Notes under the pieces: generated by a model
The model's input: only the letters and a program-made list of their open reading frames with translations
Database searches by the model: none
What the model was told of the DNA's origin: nothing
In this document: positions 3,834-44,980 of the stretch, piece by piece
Layout: every line of letters begins with the position of its first letter
How positions within the stretch are numbered: the stretch's first letter is position 1
Virus record (IMG/VR): IMGVR_UViG_3300043399_000833
Location: 1 to 50,368 of that record
DNA length: 50,368 nucleotides
DNA from: a virus
Reading direction: 5' to 3' (one strand)
Made by a program: the position numbers and the translations under genes

Positions 3834-4035
3834 AGACAAACCCGCCCTGCGCCTTCTGGGCGCCTTGCGCCACGCGACGGGGCGCGCAACCATCGAAACG
3901 ATGTCCGACGATCATTGGGCCGAAGCGGAGCGCCTGGCGGCGTCGTTGCATCGGCTGATTAAGGCTCGCCGCGATCAGGCGAAGGCGGAACGGTATCAGC
4001 GTATGATGCGGAGGCCGTCACAGGAGGGAGTATGA
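3826..4035 (+). CDS. Hypothetical small basic protein (69 aa)
   Basis: ATG at 3826 overlaps the end of the gene before by 8 bp and has AGGAG at 3811-3815. The protein is helical and rich in Arg/Ala (HWAEAERLAASLHRLIKARRDQAKAERYQRMMRR). Its stop overlaps the start of the nuclease gene (ATGA). No family recognised; coupling on both sides supports it as real. Confidence 0.6.
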   Translation: MDRDKPALRLLGALRHATGRATIETMSDDHWAEAERLAASLHRLIKARRDQAKAERYQRMMRRPSQEGV

Positions 4036-4994
4036 TCGGCACAGGCAAAGGTTGGAGTAAAGGGAAGGCGTTCGTGCCCAGGCAGACGTGCCAGCAATGT
4101 GCAAAAGAATTCTACGCCCCGCCTGTGCTTATTCGACGCGGTGGCGGAAAGTTTTGCTCGCGAAAATGCGCAGTCGCAAGTAGGGCTTTGCGTGAAAAAG
4201 TGCGCGTAGTAAAAATATGCGCCGGATGTGGCAATGAATACTTGTGCTATCCATCGCATGTCAAGCGTTCGCGTTTTTGCAGCAAGAAATGCGTGCATCA
4301 TATAAAAGAAGGGTACATAAAAGAAGGACACATAAAAGAAGGGCATATAAAGGAAAGATACACAAAGGAAAAGCATTGCGCGGCATGCGGGAAGTTGCTT
4401 GTAAATCGCTTGCGTAAGTATTGCTCGCGCACGTGTTACGCTGCGTCCAATACCGGATCGAATAATTGGAACTGGAGGGGAGGCAACCAGATGATCACGT
4501 GTTCTATTTGTGGTGTTGAGTTTGAGGCAAAACGAGGGCAAATTACAGCTGGCTATGCCAAATTTTGCTCGCGAGCATGCCACGGGATCTTCAAAGGGCA
4601 GAACGCGGAAAAAACCCATACGCGTGCCAGAGGCGGACGACGCGAAGATCTTGGAAATCGTTATTTTCGATCTTCTTGGGAGGCGAACTGGGCACGGTAT
4701 TTGAACTGGCTCATTCAAATTGGCGAGATCAGGAGTTGGGAATACGAGATTGACACGTTTGAGTTTTCTCGCATCAAACGCGGCAATCGGACATATACAC
4801 CAGACTTCAAAATCACAAATAGCAATGGGAGCACAGAGTATCACGAAGTCAAAGGGTACATGGACAAGTCAAGCAAGACAAAGCTCGATAGGATGGCTCG
4901 TTATTATCCGAATATCAGGGTAATTTTAATTGACGAACCGGCATACAAAGCCATTGCGAGTCAATTCAAAAGAAGCCTGCCAGGATGGGAATAA
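4032..4994 (+). CDS. Zinc-finger PD-(D/E)XK endonuclease, probably a free-standing homing-type nuclease
   Basis: 320 residues. Four treble-clef-like zinc fingers have paired cysteines at 20/23 and 42/46, 63/66 and 83/87, 116/119 and 131/135, 157/160 and 179/183. A nuclease domain follows, with SSWEANWARYLNW (214-226), then YTPDF (D258) and HEVKGY (E272, K274), the PD...ExK catalytic arrangement. Between fingers 2 and 3 lies a run of five pentapeptides (I/T-K-E-G/R/K-Y/H). The gene is visibly richer in A/T and AAA/AAG codons than its neighbours, which suggests recent acquisition, as is common for mobile endonucleases. It is inserted in the early operon with an ATGA overlap. Confidence 0.8.
   Translation: MIGTGKGWSKGKAFVPRQTCQQCAKEFYAPPVLIRRGGGKFCSRKCAVASRALREKVRVVKICAGCGNEYLCYPSHVKRSRFCSKKCVHHIKEGYIKEGHIKEGHIKERYTKEKHCAACGKLLVNRLRKYCSRTCYAASNTGSNNWNWRGGNQMITCSICGVEFEAKRGQITAGYAKFCSRACHGIFKGQNAEKTHTRARGGRREDLGNRYFRSSWEANWARYLNWLIQIGEIRSWEYEIDTFEFSRIKRGNRTYTPDFKITNSNGSTEYHEVKGYMDKSSKTKLDRMARYYPNIRVILIDEPAYKAIASQFKRSLPGWE
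4302..4376 (+). repeat. Five 15-bp tandem repeats inside the nuclease gene
   Basis: Positions 4302-4376 encode residues 91-115 as five consecutive pentapeptides of the form IKEGY/IKEGH/IKERY/TKEKH. The 15-bp units are still near-identical at DNA level, so the expansion is recent and could vary in copy number. Confidence 0.85.
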
Positions 4995-5680
4995 GAATGG
5001 CACTCATAATCAACGACCACGCCACGCCATCGGCGGCACAGTGGCGCATTGCCATTGATGGGATGAGGAATAGCTGGGAGAGCTGGGAAAATGGCGATAG
5101 TTACATCTCGCTCTATGGTGATTGGGTGTTCGGTGCCAAAGACCGGCAACTGCTCAAGCAGCTGCTCAAGGCGGGGCCGGATCACGCAAAGGCAGCGCGG
5201 CAGTTTTTTCTGATTGCTACCGTCACCGCACCGGATTACTGGTGGCGACAACTGGATCAGTACCGCGTTGGCGTAGACAAAAACAGGCCAAACGAGATCC
5301 TCTCCATTGGCCCGGACGATCTGTCTACCAACAGCACGTCCCAGATGCACACGCTCGGACGCCAACCAATCACGGAGGAGCACATCGACCTAGACGACGT
5401 GCCCGAGGACGAGCGCGAACAGTACCTCGCGCTCGTTAACAGGCAGCGCGAACGGTGGATCGAAGCGGGCAAGCGCAAGGGGCCGCAGTCCACCGAATGG
5501 CGCGGGCTGCTCCAGCTCGTTCCAGCCGGTTGGATCTACCGGCGCACCATTGCCACCAACTATCAGGCCGCGCGAGCCATGTACCACGCACGGAAGAGCC
5601 ACCGCGAGGGCGAGTGGAGGGACTTTTGCAAGTGGCTTGAAACGATTGAGCACAGTTGGATTATCACGGAGGAGTTCTGA
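4985..5680 (+). CDS. Phage protein of unknown function with conserved C-terminal RxxxxxxNYxxxxxMYHARKxHxxxEWxxFCxW motif
   Basis: 231 residues from ATG 4985, or 227 from ATG 4997, which has the better spacing to GGATGGGA. Visible signatures are PDYWWRQLDQYRVGVDKN, TSQMHTLGRQPIT and the C-terminal LQLVPAGWIYRRTIATNYQAARAMYHARKSHREGEWRDFCKWLETIEHS. I have seen the same order (WW..D.YRVG, STMHT, LLP..Y..RRT...NY....MY..RK.HK..EW..FC.WI..LP) in many uncharacterised proteins of Firmicute phages. A distant thymidylate-synthase-X-like fold has crossed my mind, but the ThyX signature RHRxxxxxxxS is not present. Function unknown. Confidence 0.7.
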   Translation: MGIRMALIINDHATPSAAQWRIAIDGMRNSWESWENGDSYISLYGDWVFGAKDRQLLKQLLKAGPDHAKAARQFFLIATVTAPDYWWRQLDQYRVGVDKNRPNEILSIGPDDLSTNSTSQMHTLGRQPITEEHIDLDDVPEDEREQYLALVNRQRERWIEAGKRKGPQSTEWRGLLQLVPAGWIYRRTIATNYQAARAMYHARKSHREGEWRDFCKWLETIEHSWIITEEF

Positions 5681-6393
5681 TGAAGTATGTTTACCTAGTC
5701 CGTGCTATCGGCACGGACTACTACAAAATCGGCTCAACGAAGAGCGTGGGATCTCGTATGGATCAGCTGCGCAACACGTCGCCGTTCGATCTGACATTGA
5801 TCGACAGCGCACCGAGCGAGCGAGCGCAACACATTGAGCGAAGCCTTCACAACCAGTTGATACACCATCGTCATAATGGCGAGTGGTTCGAGTTGGACGG
5901 AGAATTGGTTCGAAGCGTGGTCAACACGATTAGAAGCGCCGAGGAGGAAGCGATAAACGGCGTTGATGCGCTTCCTCAAGATATTCCGCGGCGATTGATA
6001 ACAACACAGGATATTGTCAGGCTCAAGCATCAACCTGACACCCCGCAGGGGCGCCGTGACACGCTAATGTTGTGCCTGATGCTCGACATGGGCATACAGA
6101 TCGGCATCCTCCCACACATTGCATCAGGCGAGCTTGAGCAGATGGGTACAATTCCAGCTGATACGCGCATCGCACTGGAAGCCTATCAGGAACACGATGG
6201 GCTGCCGTTCGGCAGATTGCTGCGCGGCTCTCGGAAGAACGGGGAACTATGGGGCTACATGTCCACACGCGCAATTGCCGAACGCATCGCGATACTGGGT
6301 GACGATATTGGAATTGACAGGCTCAGTAGTCGCGATCTCCTGCACGCTTACAAAACGTACGGCCCAGTGCATTGCCTACAGGAGTTTAAGTAA
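5680..6393 (+). CDS. GIY-YIG (T5orf172-like) domain fused to a degenerate tyrosine-recombinase-like domain
   Basis: 237 residues. ATG at 5680 shares its A with the upstream stop and has GGAGGAG in front. Residues 1-75 are a T5orf172/GIY-YIG domain: YVYLVRA, DYYKIGSTKSVGSRMDQLRN (R26) and GEWFEL (E68). Residues 108-230 read like the catalytic half of a phage/XerC-type integrase (TPQGRRDTLMLCLMLDMGIQIG, LLRGSRKNGELWGYMSTRAIAERI, IDRLSSRDLLHAYKT). The box I Arg expected in 'GLRxGE' is Gln (GIQIGI), the 'HDxRH' box II is RDLLH, and the C-terminal Tyr region is absent. It is therefore not an active recombinase but may keep DNA binding. Domain identity of the second half is from memory of integrase patterns. 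Confidence 0.65.
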   Translation: MKYVYLVRAIGTDYYKIGSTKSVGSRMDQLRNTSPFDLTLIDSAPSERAQHIERSLHNQLIHHRHNGEWFELDGELVRSVVNTIRSAEEEAINGVDALPQDIPRRLITTQDIVRLKHQPDTPQGRRDTLMLCLMLDMGIQIGILPHIASGELEQMGTIPADTRIALEAYQEHDGLPFGRLLRGSRKNGELWGYMSTRAIAERIAILGDDIGIDRLSSRDLLHAYKTYGPVHCLQEFK

Positions 6394-6394
6394 A

Positions 6395-6979
6395 ATGCTT
6401 GCCACATCCGCCATCCGCGCCGCATTCGACGACGGTGCGATTATCTGCGTGCCGCCACCGCCCCGTATCGAAGGTGCTCATATCGACATCACCCTGGGCA
6501 ACCACGCCTGGCTGTTCGATCCCGCACGCGAGGAGCAGGGTGAAGAGCTCTCCGAGCTCGACATCGGCACCGCCGATCCTGCCGATTGGTTTGAGTCGTG
6601 GGACGCCGTGGACGGCTGTATCTGGATCCCTGCGCAGTCCACGATCCTCGCCCACACCCGGGAGTATATCGGCACGGCACCCGGCTCCGGCCTTGTACCG
6701 ATGCTCCACACGCGCTCTACCCTGGCCCGTTGGGGCCTGTCCGTCTGCACCGCGAACGCAGGGCAGGGCGACGAGGGCTACTGCACGCGGTGGACGCTGG
6801 AGATTGTCAACCCGCACCAGCGCACCATCCTGATCCCCGTGGGTGCGCGTGTCGGTGCGATCTCGTTTCACGGTGCCGAGGGCACGGCGCAGCGCTACCA
6901 GATCGACACGCGCTACAACGCGACCATTGCCCAGTGGCAGCCGTCGCACATGCTGCCGCGGAGAGGTAATCTCCTATGA
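6395..6979 (+). CDS. dcd: dCTP deaminase-like protein
   Basis: 194 residues, ATG at 6395 after AGGAG at 6380. It belongs to the dCTP deaminase/dUTPase superfamily: HIDITLGNHAWLFDP near residue 29, HTRSTLARWGLSVCTANAGQGDEGY (106-129; the S-x-x-x-R motif) and WTLEIVNP (133-140, with E136 at the place of the catalytic Glu of dCTP deaminases), then IPVGARVGAISFHGAEG. It would convert dCTP to dUTP (or on to dUMP in bifunctional types) to feed thymidylate synthesis. It fits with the ribonucleotide reductase at 43061-44980. No separate dUTPase or thymidylate synthase is recognised. Confidence 0.85.
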   Translation: MLATSAIRAAFDDGAIICVPPPPRIEGAHIDITLGNHAWLFDPAREEQGEELSELDIGTADPADWFESWDAVDGCIWIPAQSTILAHTREYIGTAPGSGLVPMLHTRSTLARWGLSVCTANAGQGDEGYCTRWTLEIVNPHQRTILIPVGARVGAISFHGAEGTAQRYQIDTRYNATIAQWQPSHMLPRRGNLL

Positions 6980-7173: not shown

Positions 7174-7190
7174 GCTAGGCCCGCGCACCC

Positions 7191-7219
7191 AACGCGCCTT
7201 CAATCGAGGGCGCGTTTTT
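7191..7219 (+). terminator. Rho-independent terminator of the rightward early operon
   Basis: AACGCGCC (7191-7198) pairs with GGCGCGTT (7209-7216), followed by further T residues to 7219. It lies 18 bp after the last stop of the operon. Confidence 0.85.
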
Positions 7220-7225
7220 CGTCGC

Positions 7226-7288
7226 CAAAAATTGCTTCAAAATTGGCCATCTCACCCACTAGACAATGTTTAATTGCTATGCTATATT
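7226..7288 (+). promoter_or_regulatory. Accessory operon promoter 1 with upstream direct-repeat operator
   Basis: TAGACA (7260-7265), a 17-bp spacer and TATATT (7283-7288) with an upstream TGC (extended -10). The predicted transcript starts with GTGAGGGGCAA, the same start as at 35793 and 41258. Upstream at 7226-7248 is a pair of CAAAATTGC-like direct repeats that recurs at 35729-35750 in the same position relative to the promoter, so a common regulator is likely. Confidence 0.8.
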
Positions 7289-7332
7289 TAATCACGTGAG
7301 GGGCAACGCTAGTAGCAACAGGAGACACCACG

Positions 7333-7629
7333 ATGAGCACTACCAAGCCTAACACCAAGACGGTCAACGGACTGATGTCTGTGTTCTTCGGCGGAGCCGC
7401 CGAGAGAAAGGCAGTTACGAATATCACAACCGCCAGCGGTGCGCTGGCGGTGCAGTTCACCCTGACGGCGAGGCAATTCCAGTGGCTGTGCGACGTCGCG
7501 CAGCGCGAGGATGGGTTTGTGCCCACCTCACGCACCGGACGCGCCAGTGTGCAGGGCGAGATTGACGGCGCATCGTTCGAGGCCAACGAGCAGAAGGGCG
7601 GAAGCGCCCTGGTGCTCGTGCGCTACTAG
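7333..7629 (+). CDS. Hypothetical protein, first gene of accessory operon 1 (98 aa)
   Basis: ATG at 7333 with AGGAGA 8-13 bp upstream, 45 bp after the promoter -10. The C-terminal part is a predicted beta-rich domain (LAVQFTLTARQFQWLCDVAQREDGFVPTSRTGRASVQGEIDGASFEANEQKGGSALVLVRY). No family recognised. Its stop is followed at once by the three-hairpin RNA element at 7633-7717, as is the first gene of the operon at 35830. Confidence 0.65.
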   Translation: MSTTKPNTKTVNGLMSVFFGGAAERKAVTNITTASGALAVQFTLTARQFQWLCDVAQREDGFVPTSRTGRASVQGEIDGASFEANEQKGGSALVLVRY

Positions 7630-7725: not shown

Positions 7726-8106
7726 ATGGCACACTTCATTGTTTCGTTTCACGCACGGCAGGCCGATGAGCGGATCGAGCTCGACGCGAATGGCACGTTC
7801 GACAGCATTTCTGAGCACCCCATTTACGGCGAGGTGCATAACTACCGTTACAACGTCTCAAACCGTGAGGCCGACGAGTTTGAGTTGGCGTGCGAGCGGC
7901 TGGACGCGGTGGCGGCGTATCAGTACGTTGAGCCGGAGCCGTTGAACACCAATCGCATGAAGCGCATTGCACGTCTGGCCGGTGTCTCCACGGCCACCGT
8001 CAACGAGTTTGCTCACGCCGATTGGAGCGAAGCCGATCACCGCGAGGTTCTTGCACAGTCGTCTGACGCGGAAATTGCATCGTGGATTCGCTCTTGCATG
8101 CGCTAG
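7726..8106 (+). CDS. Hypothetical protein (126 aa), second gene of accessory operon 1
   Basis: ATG at 7726 behind GGAGGAGGAG of RNA element copy A. N-terminal half is beta-like (MAHFIVSFHARQADERIELDANGTFDSISEHPIYGEVHNYRYNVSNREADEF). The C-terminal half has an HTH-like run (NTNRMKRIARLAGVSTATVNEFAHADWSEADHREVLAQ). A DNA-binding role is possible but unproven. RNA element copy B follows directly. Confidence 0.65.
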   Translation: MAHFIVSFHARQADERIELDANGTFDSISEHPIYGEVHNYRYNVSNREADEFELACERLDAVAAYQYVEPEPLNTNRMKRIARLAGVSTATVNEFAHADWSEADHREVLAQSSDAEIASWIRSCMR

Positions 8107-8112
8107 CGCCTT

Positions 8113-8194
8113 CAGTCGTGCAGCGGGCGCAAGCCCGCCCCAGGGTAGAGTCCCTGGCCCGTGGCACCTGGCCGCGGTGGGCGTGGAGGAGGAG
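8113..8194 (+). ncRNA. Three-stem intercistronic RNA element, copy B
   Basis: Box CAGTCGTGC (8113-8121); P1 GCGGGC/GCCCGC (8123-8138) with a GCAA (GNRA) tetraloop; P2 CCAGGG/CCCTGG (8140-8157) with loop TAGAGT; P3 CCGTGGC/GCCGCGG (8159-8177, one G-U); then GGGCGTGGAGGAGGAG as ribosome binding site. It begins 6 bp after the stop of the gene at 7726. Stem sequences differ from copies A and C while pairing is kept. Confidence 0.8.
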
Positions 8195-8198
8195 TACG

Positions 8199-8408
8199 AT
8201 GCACCACATCACCCCAGAGAACGTTCGAACGGCCAGCCCCGAGCTGCTGGCGGCCATTTGCGCCGTCGTCAACGCGGCCATCGACCATGACGGCGCGTTC
8301 AACAAGGCGCATGCGCACCTCGCCCATATCGTGGTGCCCGAGTGGTACCACTACGGCGTCGCCGAGGCGCTTTTCGATCTGGCCCGCGTGCAGCAGGAGG
8401 ATGTATGA
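8199..8408 (+). CDS. Hypothetical protein (69 aa)
   Basis: ATG at 8199 after GGAGGAGGAG. A short helical protein (LLAAICAVVNAAIDHDGAFNKAHAHLAHIVVPEWYHYGVAEALFDLARV) that is histidine-rich for its size. It ends with an ATGA overlap into the next gene. No family recognised. Confidence 0.6.
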   Translation: MHHITPENVRTASPELLAAICAVVNAAIDHDGAFNKAHAHLAHIVVPEWYHYGVAEALFDLARVQQEDV

Positions 8409-8608
8409 ACTACCGCGTATGGCTGGCTGACGACGGCGACCCCAACCACGAAACGCTTCGGGACATCATGTTCGGCGAGTGCGAAGAGCCCGTCTTTGTC
8501 GAGCGTGACAACGACCTCGTCGTCTGGGACTTCGAGGTCTCAGACAGCATCTTCGAGCACTGGCTACAGCAATTCGGGCCGGTGATGGCCTGGGAGCGTC
8601 TGTCATGA
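8405..8608 (+). CDS. Hypothetical acidic protein (67 aa)
   Basis: ATG at 8405 overlaps the previous stop (ATGA), with AGGAGG just before. Strongly acidic throughout (DDGDPNHETLRDIMFGECEEPVFVERDNDLVVWDFEVSDSIFEHW). Small acidic phage proteins sometimes mimic DNA, but nothing here shows that. Its stop overlaps the next start. Confidence 0.6.
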   Translation: MNYRVWLADDGDPNHETLRDIMFGECEEPVFVERDNDLVVWDFEVSDSIFEHWLQQFGPVMAWERLS

Positions 8609-8871
8609 CGCTCGACGACCGCCTACGGCGCGTGGGCTACCACCTCACGCGCCGCACCCTGGGCGACGGTACCATGGCGTGGTTCGTCGTCGCTGACTCG
8701 CCCTCCGGGGCGAAGGGGTACCACTGCAGGACATTGGCCGAGGTGCGCGAGCTGTGCCAGGCTCTCACCGAGTGCCACGGCAGACGCGGGGCCGTGACCA
8801 ACTACGGCGGCGCGTGGCGCTGCCACGAGATCGACGAGGAGTATCAACACCGTGACAACGAGCGGCTCTAA
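8605..8871 (+). CDS. Hypothetical protein (88 aa)
   Basis: ATG at 8605 overlaps the stop of the acidic protein gene. Contains RRVGYHLTRRTLGDGTMAWFVVADSPSGAKGYHCRTLAEVRELCQALTE, a small alpha/beta layout reminiscent of single-domain phage accessory proteins. It overlaps the next gene by 20 bp. No family recognised. Confidence 0.6.
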   Translation: MTLDDRLRRVGYHLTRRTLGDGTMAWFVVADSPSGAKGYHCRTLAEVRELCQALTECHGRRGAVTNYGGAWRCHEIDEEYQHRDNERL

Positions 8872-35701: not shown

Positions 35702-35731
35702 ATTGTAGCATGTGGTGCAAGAGCGCGTCAA
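35702..35731 (-). promoter_or_regulatory. Lysis operon promoter, predicted leaderless
   Basis: Minus strand TTGACG (35731-35726), 18-bp spacer, TACAAT (35707-35702), then 6 bp to the ATG at 35695. The CAAAATTGC direct repeats at 35729-35750 touch its -35 box and lie between it and the divergent promoter at 35762. Confidence 0.65.
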
Positions 35732-35790
35732 AATTGCTCCAAAATTGCCCGTTTTGCCTACTTCACAAGCTCTATTTATCGTGCTATAAT
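35729..35790 (+). promoter_or_regulatory. Accessory operon promoter 2 with upstream direct-repeat operator
   Basis: TTCACA (35762-35767), 17-bp spacer, TATAAT (35785-35790), preceded by TGC. Transcript start region carries GAGAGGGGCAA as at 7293 and 41258. Direct repeats CAAAATTGC (35729-35750) match those at 7226-7248 in sequence and spacing to the -35. Confidence 0.85.
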
Positions 35791-35829
35791 AATTCCATTG
35801 AGAGGGGCAATTACTGAGGAGACATCACC

Positions 35830-36171: not shown

Positions 36172-36174
36172 TCT

Positions 36175-36257
36175 CCAGTCGTGCAGCGGCCCGCAGGCCG
36201 CCCCACCGTAGCAGTCGGTGGCCGTCAGCAACGTGCTGACGAGGGCGTGGAGGAGGA
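36175..36257 (+). ncRNA. Three-stem intercistronic RNA element, copy C
   Basis: Box CCAGTCGTGC (36175-36184); P1 GCGGCC/GGCCGC (36186-36201, loop CGCA); P2 CCACCG/CGGTGG (36203-36221, loop TAGCAGT as in copy A); P3 CGTCAGCA/TGCTGACG (36223-36241, loop ACG as in copy A); then GGGCGTGGAGGAGGAG. P2 and P3 stems differ from copy A at paired positions, keeping base pairing. It starts 4 bp after the GNAT stop. Confidence 0.8.
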
Positions 36258-36261
36258 GAAC

Positions 36262-42789: not shown

Positions 42790-43100
42790 ACGCAGCAGAG
42801 ATTATCATTCGCGCAGTCAAGCACGGTATCCGATTTCGGATGCAGCGCATTGTTCGGGCAGGAGAGCATTTGGAGGTCACGGTATGCGATGGAGATCTGG
42901 AGTGCTCTCGTAGGATGTTCATTGACGATTCGCCTGAGTACAATGACATGGTGCTCGCCACCATAAAGCCCCAGGGCAACCTGGGGCTTTTTGCTTGCCG
43001 TCCAATCACACCACCACGCCCATTCCCGTGCGTCCTAAGCCCGCCTAGCGCGTCACAGGCCTATATCTCGCACAGCCCTGCGACACAGGCGAGCTCCTGA
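42786..43100 (+). CDS. Small protein whose frame runs through the terminator without a stop
   Basis: GTG 42786 overlaps the previous stop. The credible part is VNAAEIIIRAVKHGIRFRMQRIVRAGEHLEVTVCDGDLECSRRMFIDDSPEYNDMVLATI (to about 42965). The frame then crosses the terminator stem at 42965-42992 and continues antisense to the ribonucleotide reductase 3' end to 43100. A terminated mRNA would lack a stop codon. A one-base change near ACCATAAAG would give TAA, so a frameshift or sequence error is possible. Confidence 0.5.
   Translation: MNAAEIIIRAVKHGIRFRMQRIVRAGEHLEVTVCDGDLECSRRMFIDDSPEYNDMVLATIKPQGNLGLFACRPITPPRPFPCVLSPPSASQAYISHSPATQASS
42965..42992. terminator. Bidirectional rho-independent terminator
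   Basis: AAGCCCCAGG (42966-42975), loop GCAA, CCTGGGGCTT (42980-42989) and T to 42992 on the plus strand. The minus strand also has a CTTTAT tail. It separates accessory operon 3 from the convergent replication operon. Confidence 0.9.
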
Positions 43101-44980
43101 GCTGCGTTAGTAAGATCCGTCAGCTCGTAGTGGTAAATGCGGGAGAAGTCAATCACCGGGAACGCGGCAGCGCGGCGCTCGTACTCCTCGCGGCTGATCT
43201 CCACGTAGGGCATGTTGTCGTACATGGCGTCCGAGGCAGGCAGGAACGACATGCCGCCGAGCACATGCCGATTGTCCCACACCCAGTCTTTGAGCTCCTC
43301 CACCTCGTGCGGTCGGTAGGTCACTGTGCAAGAAGCGTTATGTTCAGTCCAGGCCACTTTGTTTTGCAGCCAAATGTCACACTGCTCAATAGCGCTATGA
43401 TCATTCCGCGTAATCGCACCCTCCGGGGAGCGAACGGGGAATTGCACCACCCACGTGGTCGCGTTCTCCGCGGTCTGCCCGTTCTCGGGCACCATGGGGA
43501 CGTTGGCGTCACGCAACACCTGGTAGATGGGCGAGTGGGTAGCTACACGCACGTTGCGGATGTAGTAGGGCGCCCAGCGGGCGTGCAGACCTGACGAGCA
43601 GTTCACCAGCTGCGACGTGTTGCCACTGGGCTTGACGCAGGTGATCGACGCGGACGGGTTGATGCCGAGCAGCTGGGCGTAGTGCACGTTCGCCGACTGT
43701 GCAACGGCGAGCAACTCCCGCTGCAAACCAAGAATGTGGGGCGCATCCATCTGGCCGGTGATATCGACGCCAAGTAGGCGCTCCTCCTCACAGTTGCGCT
43801 GCCACTGCGGGCGCAAGCCGGGGAAGTGGGTTGCCATCGACTGAATGGTACCGATGATCGTCGCCACCTCCACCTTGTCTGCCATATCGTCGTAGGTGTC
43901 ACCGGCACGCGCAATGGCCGCGCTGAGGTTGCACAGTTGCATCGATCTGAGGCTTATTTCGGCGCAAGGATTACAACCGAACTCCGCCGGTTTGCGCCGC
44001 TCCGGTCGCCAGTCGTTCGCCGCCACGCGGCTGAAGAACCCAGGCTCCCCGCGCCCTGAGCGCACCATCTCGTCGAACTGCGCTTCGAACTGTTCCCACG
44101 TCGGTTCCTCGGCCCAGACGACGGAGTTGTTCGCGTTCCAGCGCTGCTCGTTGCCGATCAGGTTGTCGCCGCTCTTGCACTGGAGCATCTCGTTGTCGCC
44201 CTGAGAGAACAGACTGATGAGCGCCGTACGACGCACACCGCCGCTGACCGCCGCATTGCCCACGGCACACATGATGTCGTGCGCGTCGATCGGGCGCAGC
44301 TGGCTACCCTGCCGTGCCAGGATACGTGAACGAACGAACGCGAGCATCGCACGCAGCGGCTCGGGGCCGCTCGCACGACCGCCCTTGATGCGGAGTGGTG
44401 TGCCAGCTGGGCGAACCTGTGAGAGATCGAACTGCACGTCACCACCGGCGAACCACGTCTGGAGCCCCAAGCGCAGGGCCGCGGCCCAGCCCTCCGTCGT
44501 GTCTTCGACCACGTGCGTTTCGGCGAACAGTCCGCGCTGTGGCAACACCTGCGGCAACTTGGCGACGTAGTGGCGCTCCACCGAGTAGCCCACACCACAG
44601 CCGGACATAGAGATAATCAGCGCCTCGACGAACGCATCCAGGCTGTCCACGGCCATGTAGGCACAGTTGTAGATCGCCAGATTGTTGCGCCGTGCCGCTG
44701 GCCCAGCCATGGCAAGCAAGCGCATCGACGGCATCACGCGCATCTCGCGGATTGACTGCGCAATGCGCTCGTACGTAGTGTCTGGCAATCGGCTGCCAGA
44801 CAGTTCGCGGAGGTAATCTACGGCGCGATCCACCGTCTCAACCCAGGTTTCGCGCCGACCCAGATCGTAGTTGAAGCGCGAATACTTGTCGAAGAACTGG
44901 AACTGTTGCAGCGCCGTGGGGAAGAACTGGCTGGACTCGTGATAGGCGTACCGAACGTGGATGGGGATAGGGCGATCCAT
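43061..44980 (-). CDS. nrdJ: Adenosylcobalamin-dependent (class II) ribonucleoside-triphosphate reductase
   Basis: 639 residues. It makes deoxynucleotides for replication using vitamin B12. Key motifs: YNCAYMAVDSLDAFVEALIISMSGCGVGYSVE (Cys106, the active-site pair cysteine), FGCNPCAEISLRSMQLCNLS (NPCAE with the thiyl-radical Cys and the second pair Cys in LCNLS), SITCVKPSGNTSQLVNCSSGLHARWAPYYIRNVR, and a C-terminal ACVAGLCEI with the redox cysteines. It is about 100 residues shorter than the Lactobacillus RTPR, as in other phage forms. Last gene of the leftward replication operon. Confidence 0.95.
   Translation of the reverse strand: MDRPIPIHVRYAYHESSQFFPTALQQFQFFDKYSRFNYDLGRRETWVETVDRAVDYLRELSGSRLPDTTYERIAQSIREMRVMPSMRLLAMAGPAARRNNLAIYNCAYMAVDSLDAFVEALIISMSGCGVGYSVERHYVAKLPQVLPQRGLFAETHVVEDTTEGWAAALRLGLQTWFAGGDVQFDLSQVRPAGTPLRIKGGRASGPEPLRAMLAFVRSRILARQGSQLRPIDAHDIMCAVGNAAVSGGVRRTALISLFSQGDNEMLQCKSGDNLIGNEQRWNANNSVVWAEEPTWEQFEAQFDEMVRSGRGEPGFFSRVAANDWRPERRKPAEFGCNPCAEISLRSMQLCNLSAAIARAGDTYDDMADKVEVATIIGTIQSMATHFPGLRPQWQRNCEEERLLGVDITGQMDAPHILGLQRELLAVAQSANVHYAQLLGINPSASITCVKPSGNTSQLVNCSSGLHARWAPYYIRNVRVATHSPIYQVLRDANVPMVPENGQTAENATTWVVQFPVRSPEGAITRNDHSAIEQCDIWLQNKVAWTEHNASCTVTYRPHEVEELKDWVWDNRHVLGGMSFLPASDAMYDNMPYVEISREEYERRAAAFPVIDFSRIYHYELTDLTNAAQELACVAGLCEI

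Follow-up and report, generated by a model that had tools for sequence, protein, structure and literature searches.

A phage gene joining a T5orf172 GIY-YIG nuclease domain to a predicted inactive fragment of a tyrosine recombinase

Introduction

Some phage T5orf172 nucleases are known to be directed against satellites by a replication-origin binder stolen from the satellite itself. In Odn and the Odn-like proteins, the T5orf172 domain is combined with one taken over from the element under attack (PMC8263062, PMC10448857), and Odn-like T5orf172/RepA_N nucleases are found independently in the coliphages Inny, Muut and Mt1B1_P17 (PMC10448857). Tyrosine recombinases that have lost their catalytic activity are likewise known from other systems. 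TnsF of Tn6022 and the Tsy transposon is a dead tyrosine recombinase that binds DNA, and its remaining catalytic fragment, which lost helix K, probably binds a protein (PMC10293859).

Here we describe a gene for a 237-residue protein in the virus record IMGVR_UViG_3300043399_000833, of which the whole stretch of 50,368 bases (GC 60%) was analysed and is called the window in the following. The two-domain architecture of the protein, the loss of its active site and the fact that related phages cleanly have or lack the gene are directly observed. Like those of Odn (ICP1 Gp88) and the Odn-like proteins, the gene is accessory, varies among related phages and couples T5orf172 to a domain sharing homology with a protein found in host-borne elements (PMC8263062, PMC10448857). 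Unlike in Odn, the captured domain is an inactivated tyrosine-recombinase fragment and not the RepA_N domain of a satellite replication initiator, and the nuclease is N-terminal, whereas in Odn the position of the catalytic residue, E180, points to a more C-terminal one. With the phage T5orf172 homing endonucleases carrying CapR, DUF723 or DUF4397 zinc fingers it shares the nuclease family and the insertion by nucleotide-metabolism genes (PMC10448857), but it has no zinc finger and its putative specificity part comes from a recombinase. TnsF is also an inactivated tyrosine recombinase, used there for target choice, and the Tsy operon has a separate GIY-YIG nuclease gene, whereas in our case the two are fused; moreover, TnsF serves transposition and keeps two core-binding domains while losing most of the catalytic domain, which is the reverse of the situation here, where the box II helix (K) that is absent from the partial domain of TnsF is kept (PMC10293859). 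Finally, MrpR (YopR) of SPbeta is also a phage protein of tyrosine-recombinase fold that is dead for catalysis and works as a DNA binder, but it is full-length with a core-binding domain, keeps the Lys and the Tyr and has no nuclease (PMC10516654).

Results

The fusion gene is an accessory insertion

The gene starts with an ATG at 5680, which overlaps with the TGA of the upstream gene as ATGA, and ends with a TAA at 6391-6393 (Table 1). No RNA element was matched in an Rfam search of the region. In the related phage IMGVR_UViG_3300034073_002788 the neighbours are the same, with 90% identity for the neighbouring protein, and the fusion gene is absent. Because this phage lacks exactly this gene between the same neighbours, the fusion gene is an accessory insertion. 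The insert has a GC content of 53.9% compared to 60% for the window, and the heptamer AGGAGTT is present at both of its ends (5670-5676 and 6380-6386), a repeat that may have arisen by chance, both copies being SD-like. That the gene is common to close viral relatives was dismissed, as 43 related records gave no match and the closest of them, of 46.8 kb, has an empty site.

Table 1 Features of the fusion gene and its surroundings (window coordinates; residues refer to the fusion protein).
Feature	Position	Strand	Basis
Upstream neighbour, PHROG 6721 (unknown function); adjoins the dCTP deaminase gene in the related phage	4985-5680	+	PHROG match
SD-like GGAGGAG of the fusion gene, inside the 3' end of the upstream gene	5668-5674	+	Sequence
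714-bp insertion relative to related phage IMGVR_UViG_3300034073_002788	5679-6392	+	DNA match runs on without a break in the relative between window 5678 and 6393
Complete gene, 237 aa: T5orf172 GIY-YIG nuclease plus predicted inactivated tyrosine-recombinase catalytic fragment	5680-6393	+	ORF, Pfam, alignments
T5orf172/MUG113 GIY-YIG domain, residues 3-84	5686-5931	+	Pfam; alignments
Linker and fusion junction, residues 85-105	5932-5994	+	Integrase BLAST alignments mostly start at residues 103-107
Tyrosine-recombinase catalytic-domain fragment, residues 106-226, predicted to be catalytically dead	5995-6357	+	tblastn, BLASTP, HMM, alignment, model
Box I catalytic Arg replaced by Gln140 (GLRVGE to GIQIGI); Glu lost too (Ile143)	6097-6099	+	Alignment
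Point of a 16-residue in-frame deletion (after residue 153) removing the beta2-beta3 hairpin with the catalytic Lys	6138-6139	+	Alignment
Counterpart of Cre helix J, residues 196-209, within WGYMSTRAIAERI; Arg197 at the Cre Arg259 position	6265-6306	+	Alignment, PDB profile search, model; PMC7438526
Box II helix, counterpart of Cre helix K, residues 217-227; HxxRH to RDLLH (His218 to Arg, Arg221 to Leu)	6328-6360	+	Alignment, model
Downstream neighbour, dCTP deaminase-like, ATG at 6395	6395-6979	+	Pfam DCD 8.5e-20

The N-terminal domain belongs to the T5orf172 nucleases

The N-terminal part of the protein was matched by the Pfam families MUG113 (3.5e-16, 60 bits, curated cut-off 22.3) and T5orf172 (6.2e-12, 46.4 bits, curated cut-off 20), as well as by several PHROGs containing a T5orf172/GIY-YIG domain. 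In alignments with viral and Chloroflexota relatives, Tyr5, K16-I17-G18, Arg26, Glu53 and GEWF (67-70) are kept, and the protein thus has the GIY-YIG set, with both catalytic residues (Arg and Glu) as well as those of the GIY/YIG strands. From the profile match and these conserved residues, we infer that the domain has nuclease activity. A PADLOC match to PDC-S57 (5.7e-9), covering the GIY-YIG domain alone, was set aside as evidence for a defence system.

The C-terminal half is related to tyrosine recombinases of Chloroflexales

The C-terminal part has no match of its own in Pfam, PHROG, NCBIfam or, when used as single sequence, in the PDB, and residues 114-237 matched neither Pfam PF00589 nor another curated integrase family up to an E-value of 10. 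A tblastn search of plasmids, in turn, yielded an intact tyrosine recombinase of Leptolinea sp. HRD-7 (40.8% identity, E 3e-18) and a tyrosine recombinase of Herpetosiphon pHAU01 (E 3e-3), and the alignment of these two with the window sequence led to 60 genome loci, nearly all of them in Chloroflexota, and to 11 loci in viral contigs. All but a few of the ORFs inspected among these loci are ordinary integrases, which have a SAM-like part at the N-terminus and the complete catalytic set, and a GIY-YIG domain was present in none of the inspected integrase-relative ORFs from the 60 genome and 11 viral-contig loci. BLASTP against Chloroflexota integrases gave a best E-value of 3e-36 with 46% identity over 138 columns, the identity to full-length Chloroflexales integrases being 45-48%, and a family HMM built without the window protein scored the latter with 92.9 bits, the best of 2000 shuffles reaching 7.8 bits. 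A chance likeness to integrases is ruled out by these tblastn, BLASTP and HMM results, which show that the C-terminal half is, as far as sequence comparison goes, homologous to the catalytic domain of tyrosine recombinases.

When the family alignment was used as a profile against the PDB, it found XerC-like proteins, XerA, XerD, XerH and Cre. When modelled by AlphaFold2 with 26 integrase fragments, most of residues 111-220 reached a pLDDT of about 93-98 (84 at the edges), compared to 38 for the whole protein modelled from its single sequence; since these input sequences are all integrases, the model has the fold to some extent built into it, and the independent proof is the sequence evidence. 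The N-terminal half was modelled without an alignment and is unreliable. In a Foldseek search of the PDB with this model, the first ten matches were Cre, Tre, XerD and lambda Int, the E-values being weak (best 0.011) because of the unreliable N-terminal half, and a search of viral models gave weak matches alone. Another fold for the C-terminal half is thus supported neither by the PDB profile search nor by AlphaFold2 or Foldseek.

In a maximum-likelihood tree, the C-terminal half is placed among Chloroflexales integrases (Ca. Chloroploca and others) with a support of 71, on a branch of 1.25 compared to a median of 0.15. Over residues 106-226, it is 41-48% identical to Chloroflexales XerC/D-like integrases (L107 of Ca. 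Chloroploca mongolica, L187, L188 and L189) and the Leptolinea plasmid protein BCY19499.1, and it shares the block LLRGSRKNGELWG[FY]MSTRAI with the closest Chloroflexales integrases. Unlike the fusion, these integrases are full-length and catalytically complete and lack a GIY-YIG domain. Tree and identities show a Chloroflexales source for the recombinase fragment, judged by its sequence.

The active site is lost and the helical core is retained

The active site was compared in an alignment with about 90 integrases. In addition to the changes in box I, the Lys hairpin and box II (Table 1), the protein ends about 11 residues past box II, with the box III His/Trp and the Tyr absent, and the set R-K-H/R-H/W-Y of an active tyrosine recombinase is therefore not found. 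Because every catalytic element is lost, recombinase activity is excluded and the fusion protein, by this comparison, cannot be a recombinase. The changes are not evenly distributed. At positions conserved in at least 90% of the family, 20 of 27 non-catalytic residues are identical versus none of five in the active-site region (Fisher p 0.004), and 25 of the 27 are kept versus none of five if conservative changes are counted (p 1e-4). The fusion has no core-binding domain and no Lys hairpin and lacks all that follows box II in the recombinases; it keeps the helical core and the main DNA-reading helices, i.e. the counterparts of J and K. The family profile can be aligned with Cre and XerD in the PDB profile search, and we take Arg197 to be in exact register with Cre Arg259, presumably by way of a shared STRA motif. 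In Cre, Arg259 makes a direct, bidentate base contact to a guanine (PMC7438526).

An earlier note on this DNA, made from its letters alone, had described ORF 5680-6393 as a T5orf172/GIY-YIG-like part followed by the pattern of a tyrosine-integrase catalytic domain with the box I Arg replaced (GIQIGI), an altered box II (RDLLH) and no catalytic Tyr region. This description holds throughout: the start and stop codons, the SD-like GGAGGAG and the ATGA overlap agree with the gene call, MUG113 and T5orf172 score above their curated cut-offs, BLASTP and HMM bear out the integrase pattern, both altered motifs are present in the alignment, and the protein ends before box III and the Tyr. The 16-residue deletion of the Lys-bearing beta-hairpin is an addition to this list of motifs. 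The note had also proposed comparison by Foldseek and profile search, with another fold counting against its reading, and these returned the recombinase fold. In that reading a nicking domain is joined to a recombinase fold that may only bind DNA; the sequence bears out the two parts, of which the first would nick and the second may bind. Another Chloroflexota integrase (L129 2557-3579) has altered catalytic motifs as well (YDCRNY and an altered Lys hairpin) and is possibly a further inactivated member.

In order to compare the C-terminal half with a decaying sequence, neutral decay was simulated from the clade consensus down to the identity observed for the fusion. More conserved sites were kept (p 0.05) and the substitutions were more conservative (p 0.02) than under simulated decay; stop codons were absent, compared to about two in the simulation (p 0.11), and all catalytic sites were lost, whereas the simulation keeps some (p 0.08). 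These values, which refer to one sequence with third positions near saturation and to a long branch that may in part predate the fusion, moderately suggest constraint on the C-terminal half and weakly reject neutral decay.

Distribution and likely host

The fusion is known from a single instance on a metagenomic contig. A second copy was found neither among related viral records, where records very near the window may be missing, nor in public phages, 400 sampled Chloroflexota and 82 Chloroflexales genomes, and no second fusion came up among T5orf172 genes taken from 10 viral contigs and from 22 Chloroflexota genomes. Two further Chloroflexales T5orf172 genes have other partners. The pairing of GIY-YIG with a dead tyrosine recombinase was not found in the literature and no Pfam, NCBIfam or PHROG family covers the C-terminal half, and an assignment to a known family was rejected on these grounds. 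The earlier note knew the combination from no described family and suggested looking for the same domain order in Chloroflexota; our searches of genomes, viral contigs, phages and literature agree with the former, and the order was absent from the 400 sampled and 82 Chloroflexales genomes.

Two of the loci are unusual in themselves. One Chloroflexales T5orf172 protein (L295 1183-2136) has a hydrophobic, membrane-like segment and a long proline-rich tail, which are strange surroundings for a nuclease domain. On an Anaerolineae contig resembling a mobile element (L224), a relative of the parent integrase occurs together with a separate T5orf172 gene that has zinc-ribbon repeats, along with a serine recombinase; the two ingredients (39-998 and 7899-8684) lie there 7 kb apart and unfused.

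The ribonucleotide reductase gene of the window (43061-44980) has about 70% DNA identity over 1.9 kb to Chloroflexales genomes, and one of these (G423) is among the best matches and also holds the closest integrase. Homologues of the tail and lysin genes of the window are found on a Chloroflexales contig (L291, G477:C330, 4054-11406), in what is probably a related prophage. Chloroflexales-like bacteria are thus the likely host by gene similarity, and the parent recombinases would therefore live in the likely host group; the fusion, in other words, combines T5orf172 with a domain whose homologues are encoded not by the phage but in its likely hosts. Several close parent recombinases look chromosomal and not obviously mobile. 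No footprint of a parent recombinase site was readable near their genes, as the conservation of flanks within genera was too high or too patchy, and no target site or target element of the fusion was identified.

Discussion

Our tentative reading, to which we give not quite an even chance, is that the gene encodes a chimeric accessory phage nuclease with an aiming domain from a Chloroflexales-type recombinase and that it cuts in a site-directed manner. The GIY-YIG domain would be the cutter and the dead recombinase fragment would aim it through the retained core fold and DNA-reading helices. The protein would bind at sites resembling those of the parent recombinase, for example where a plasmid, a satellite, a prophage or the host chromosome has its attachment or resolution sites, and would nick or cut nearby, as ICP1 Odn does with its captured RepA_N at satellite origins. 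We infer DNA binding, cleavage, the identity of the target and the benefit to the phage; the intact frame, the SD of its own, the exact insertion of a single gene and its deviating GC content argue for this reading, as do the intact Arg26 and Glu53, the loss of active-site residues beside a conserved core, Arg197, the kept box II helix, the precedents Odn, MrpR and TnsF and the presence of parent recombinases in the likely host group. Against it stand the single copy, the long branch, a neutral decay that is weakly rejected, the target that was looked for and not found, and the chromosomal look of several close parent recombinases. The central point is DNA binding by the fragment alone, since the fragment of TnsF lost helix K, and here K is kept and the core-binding domain lost. 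As this domain, the Lys hairpin and the part following box II are missing, the affinity for DNA may be weak or absent. The narrower version of this reading, namely a counter-element weapon in which a stolen and disarmed integrase guides cutting at the attachment or resolution sites of its source recombinase, as the first Odn-type nuclease guided by an integrase, is in our view unlikely, albeit conceivable.

The same insertion could also represent a selfish, free-standing homing endonuclease whose recombinase fragment is specific for its own PHROG 6721/dCTP deaminase junction and which spreads by cutting empty alleles in co-infections. Phage T5orf172 genes are mostly regarded as homing endonucleases and are found beside nucleotide-metabolism and replication genes (PMC10448857), and here the insert (5679-6392) is exactly one gene, its neighbour is a dCTP deaminase gene and the allele of a relative is empty, as for a homing gene. 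Another low-GC nuclease gene is located immediately upstream of the PHROG 6721 gene, and at this place the relative carries a small nuclease of a different kind. In the same survey, however, 87% of the T5orf172 homing enzymes use related zinc fingers, and none with an integrase domain is described in the parts considered here (PMC10448857), and there is no evident reason for the parent recombinase to recognise this phage junction, which makes homing unlikely, although we take it seriously. A non-functional or decaying chimera from recombination of a T5orf172 gene with an integrase gene, leaving the C-terminal half idle and the protein at most a nuclease of low specificity, would agree with the single copy, the 3' truncation, the internal deletion and the long branch, with a simulation that does not strongly exclude neutral decay, and with the frequent frameshifts and deletions of phage homing genes (PMC10448857). 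On the other hand, about 120 diverged codons contain no stop or frameshift, the deletion is in frame, the changes are concentrated in the active site while the conserved core is kept, and the gene has its own SD and overlaps correctly with its neighbours; we therefore consider decay rather improbable.

Recombinases exchange their C-terminal helix between subunits, and the absence of this helix from the fusion, together with the retention of just the DNA-reading helices, speaks against a further role of the fragment as a protein-interaction or decoy module that, for example, binds or poisons a recombinase of the host or a satellite, with the nuclease attacking recombinase-bound DNA. In TnsF, the partial catalytic domain probably contacts a partner protein and not DNA (PMC10293859), which is a precedent for such a module, but we regard this role as very improbable.

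Supported at present is a T5orf172 chimeric nuclease with a partner that we did not find described and that is known from one gene. If the disarmed integrase serves in the way of the captured origin binders, the aiming domains of such nucleases would be more freely interchangeable than known, and phages would counter-attack mobile elements at their integration and resolution sites as well as at replication origins. Besides MrpR and TnsF, another dead tyrosine recombinase has apparently been reused, here as a small fragment, which offers a direct test of which part of the fold suffices to read DNA.

The upstream nuclease gene (4032-4994) encodes zinc-ribbon repeats and a VSR/TnsA-like endonuclease and has a GC content of 47.6% compared to 60% for the window, and the gene at its place in the related phage is a different, VSR-like one of 103 aa. 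Nucleases thus seem to be exchangeable within 4018-6392, which has the look of a slot for them. Elsewhere in the window, three short sequences (7178-7336, 35730-35795 and 36173-36258) have more than one match to the same places of the related phage, suggesting repeated intergenic elements.
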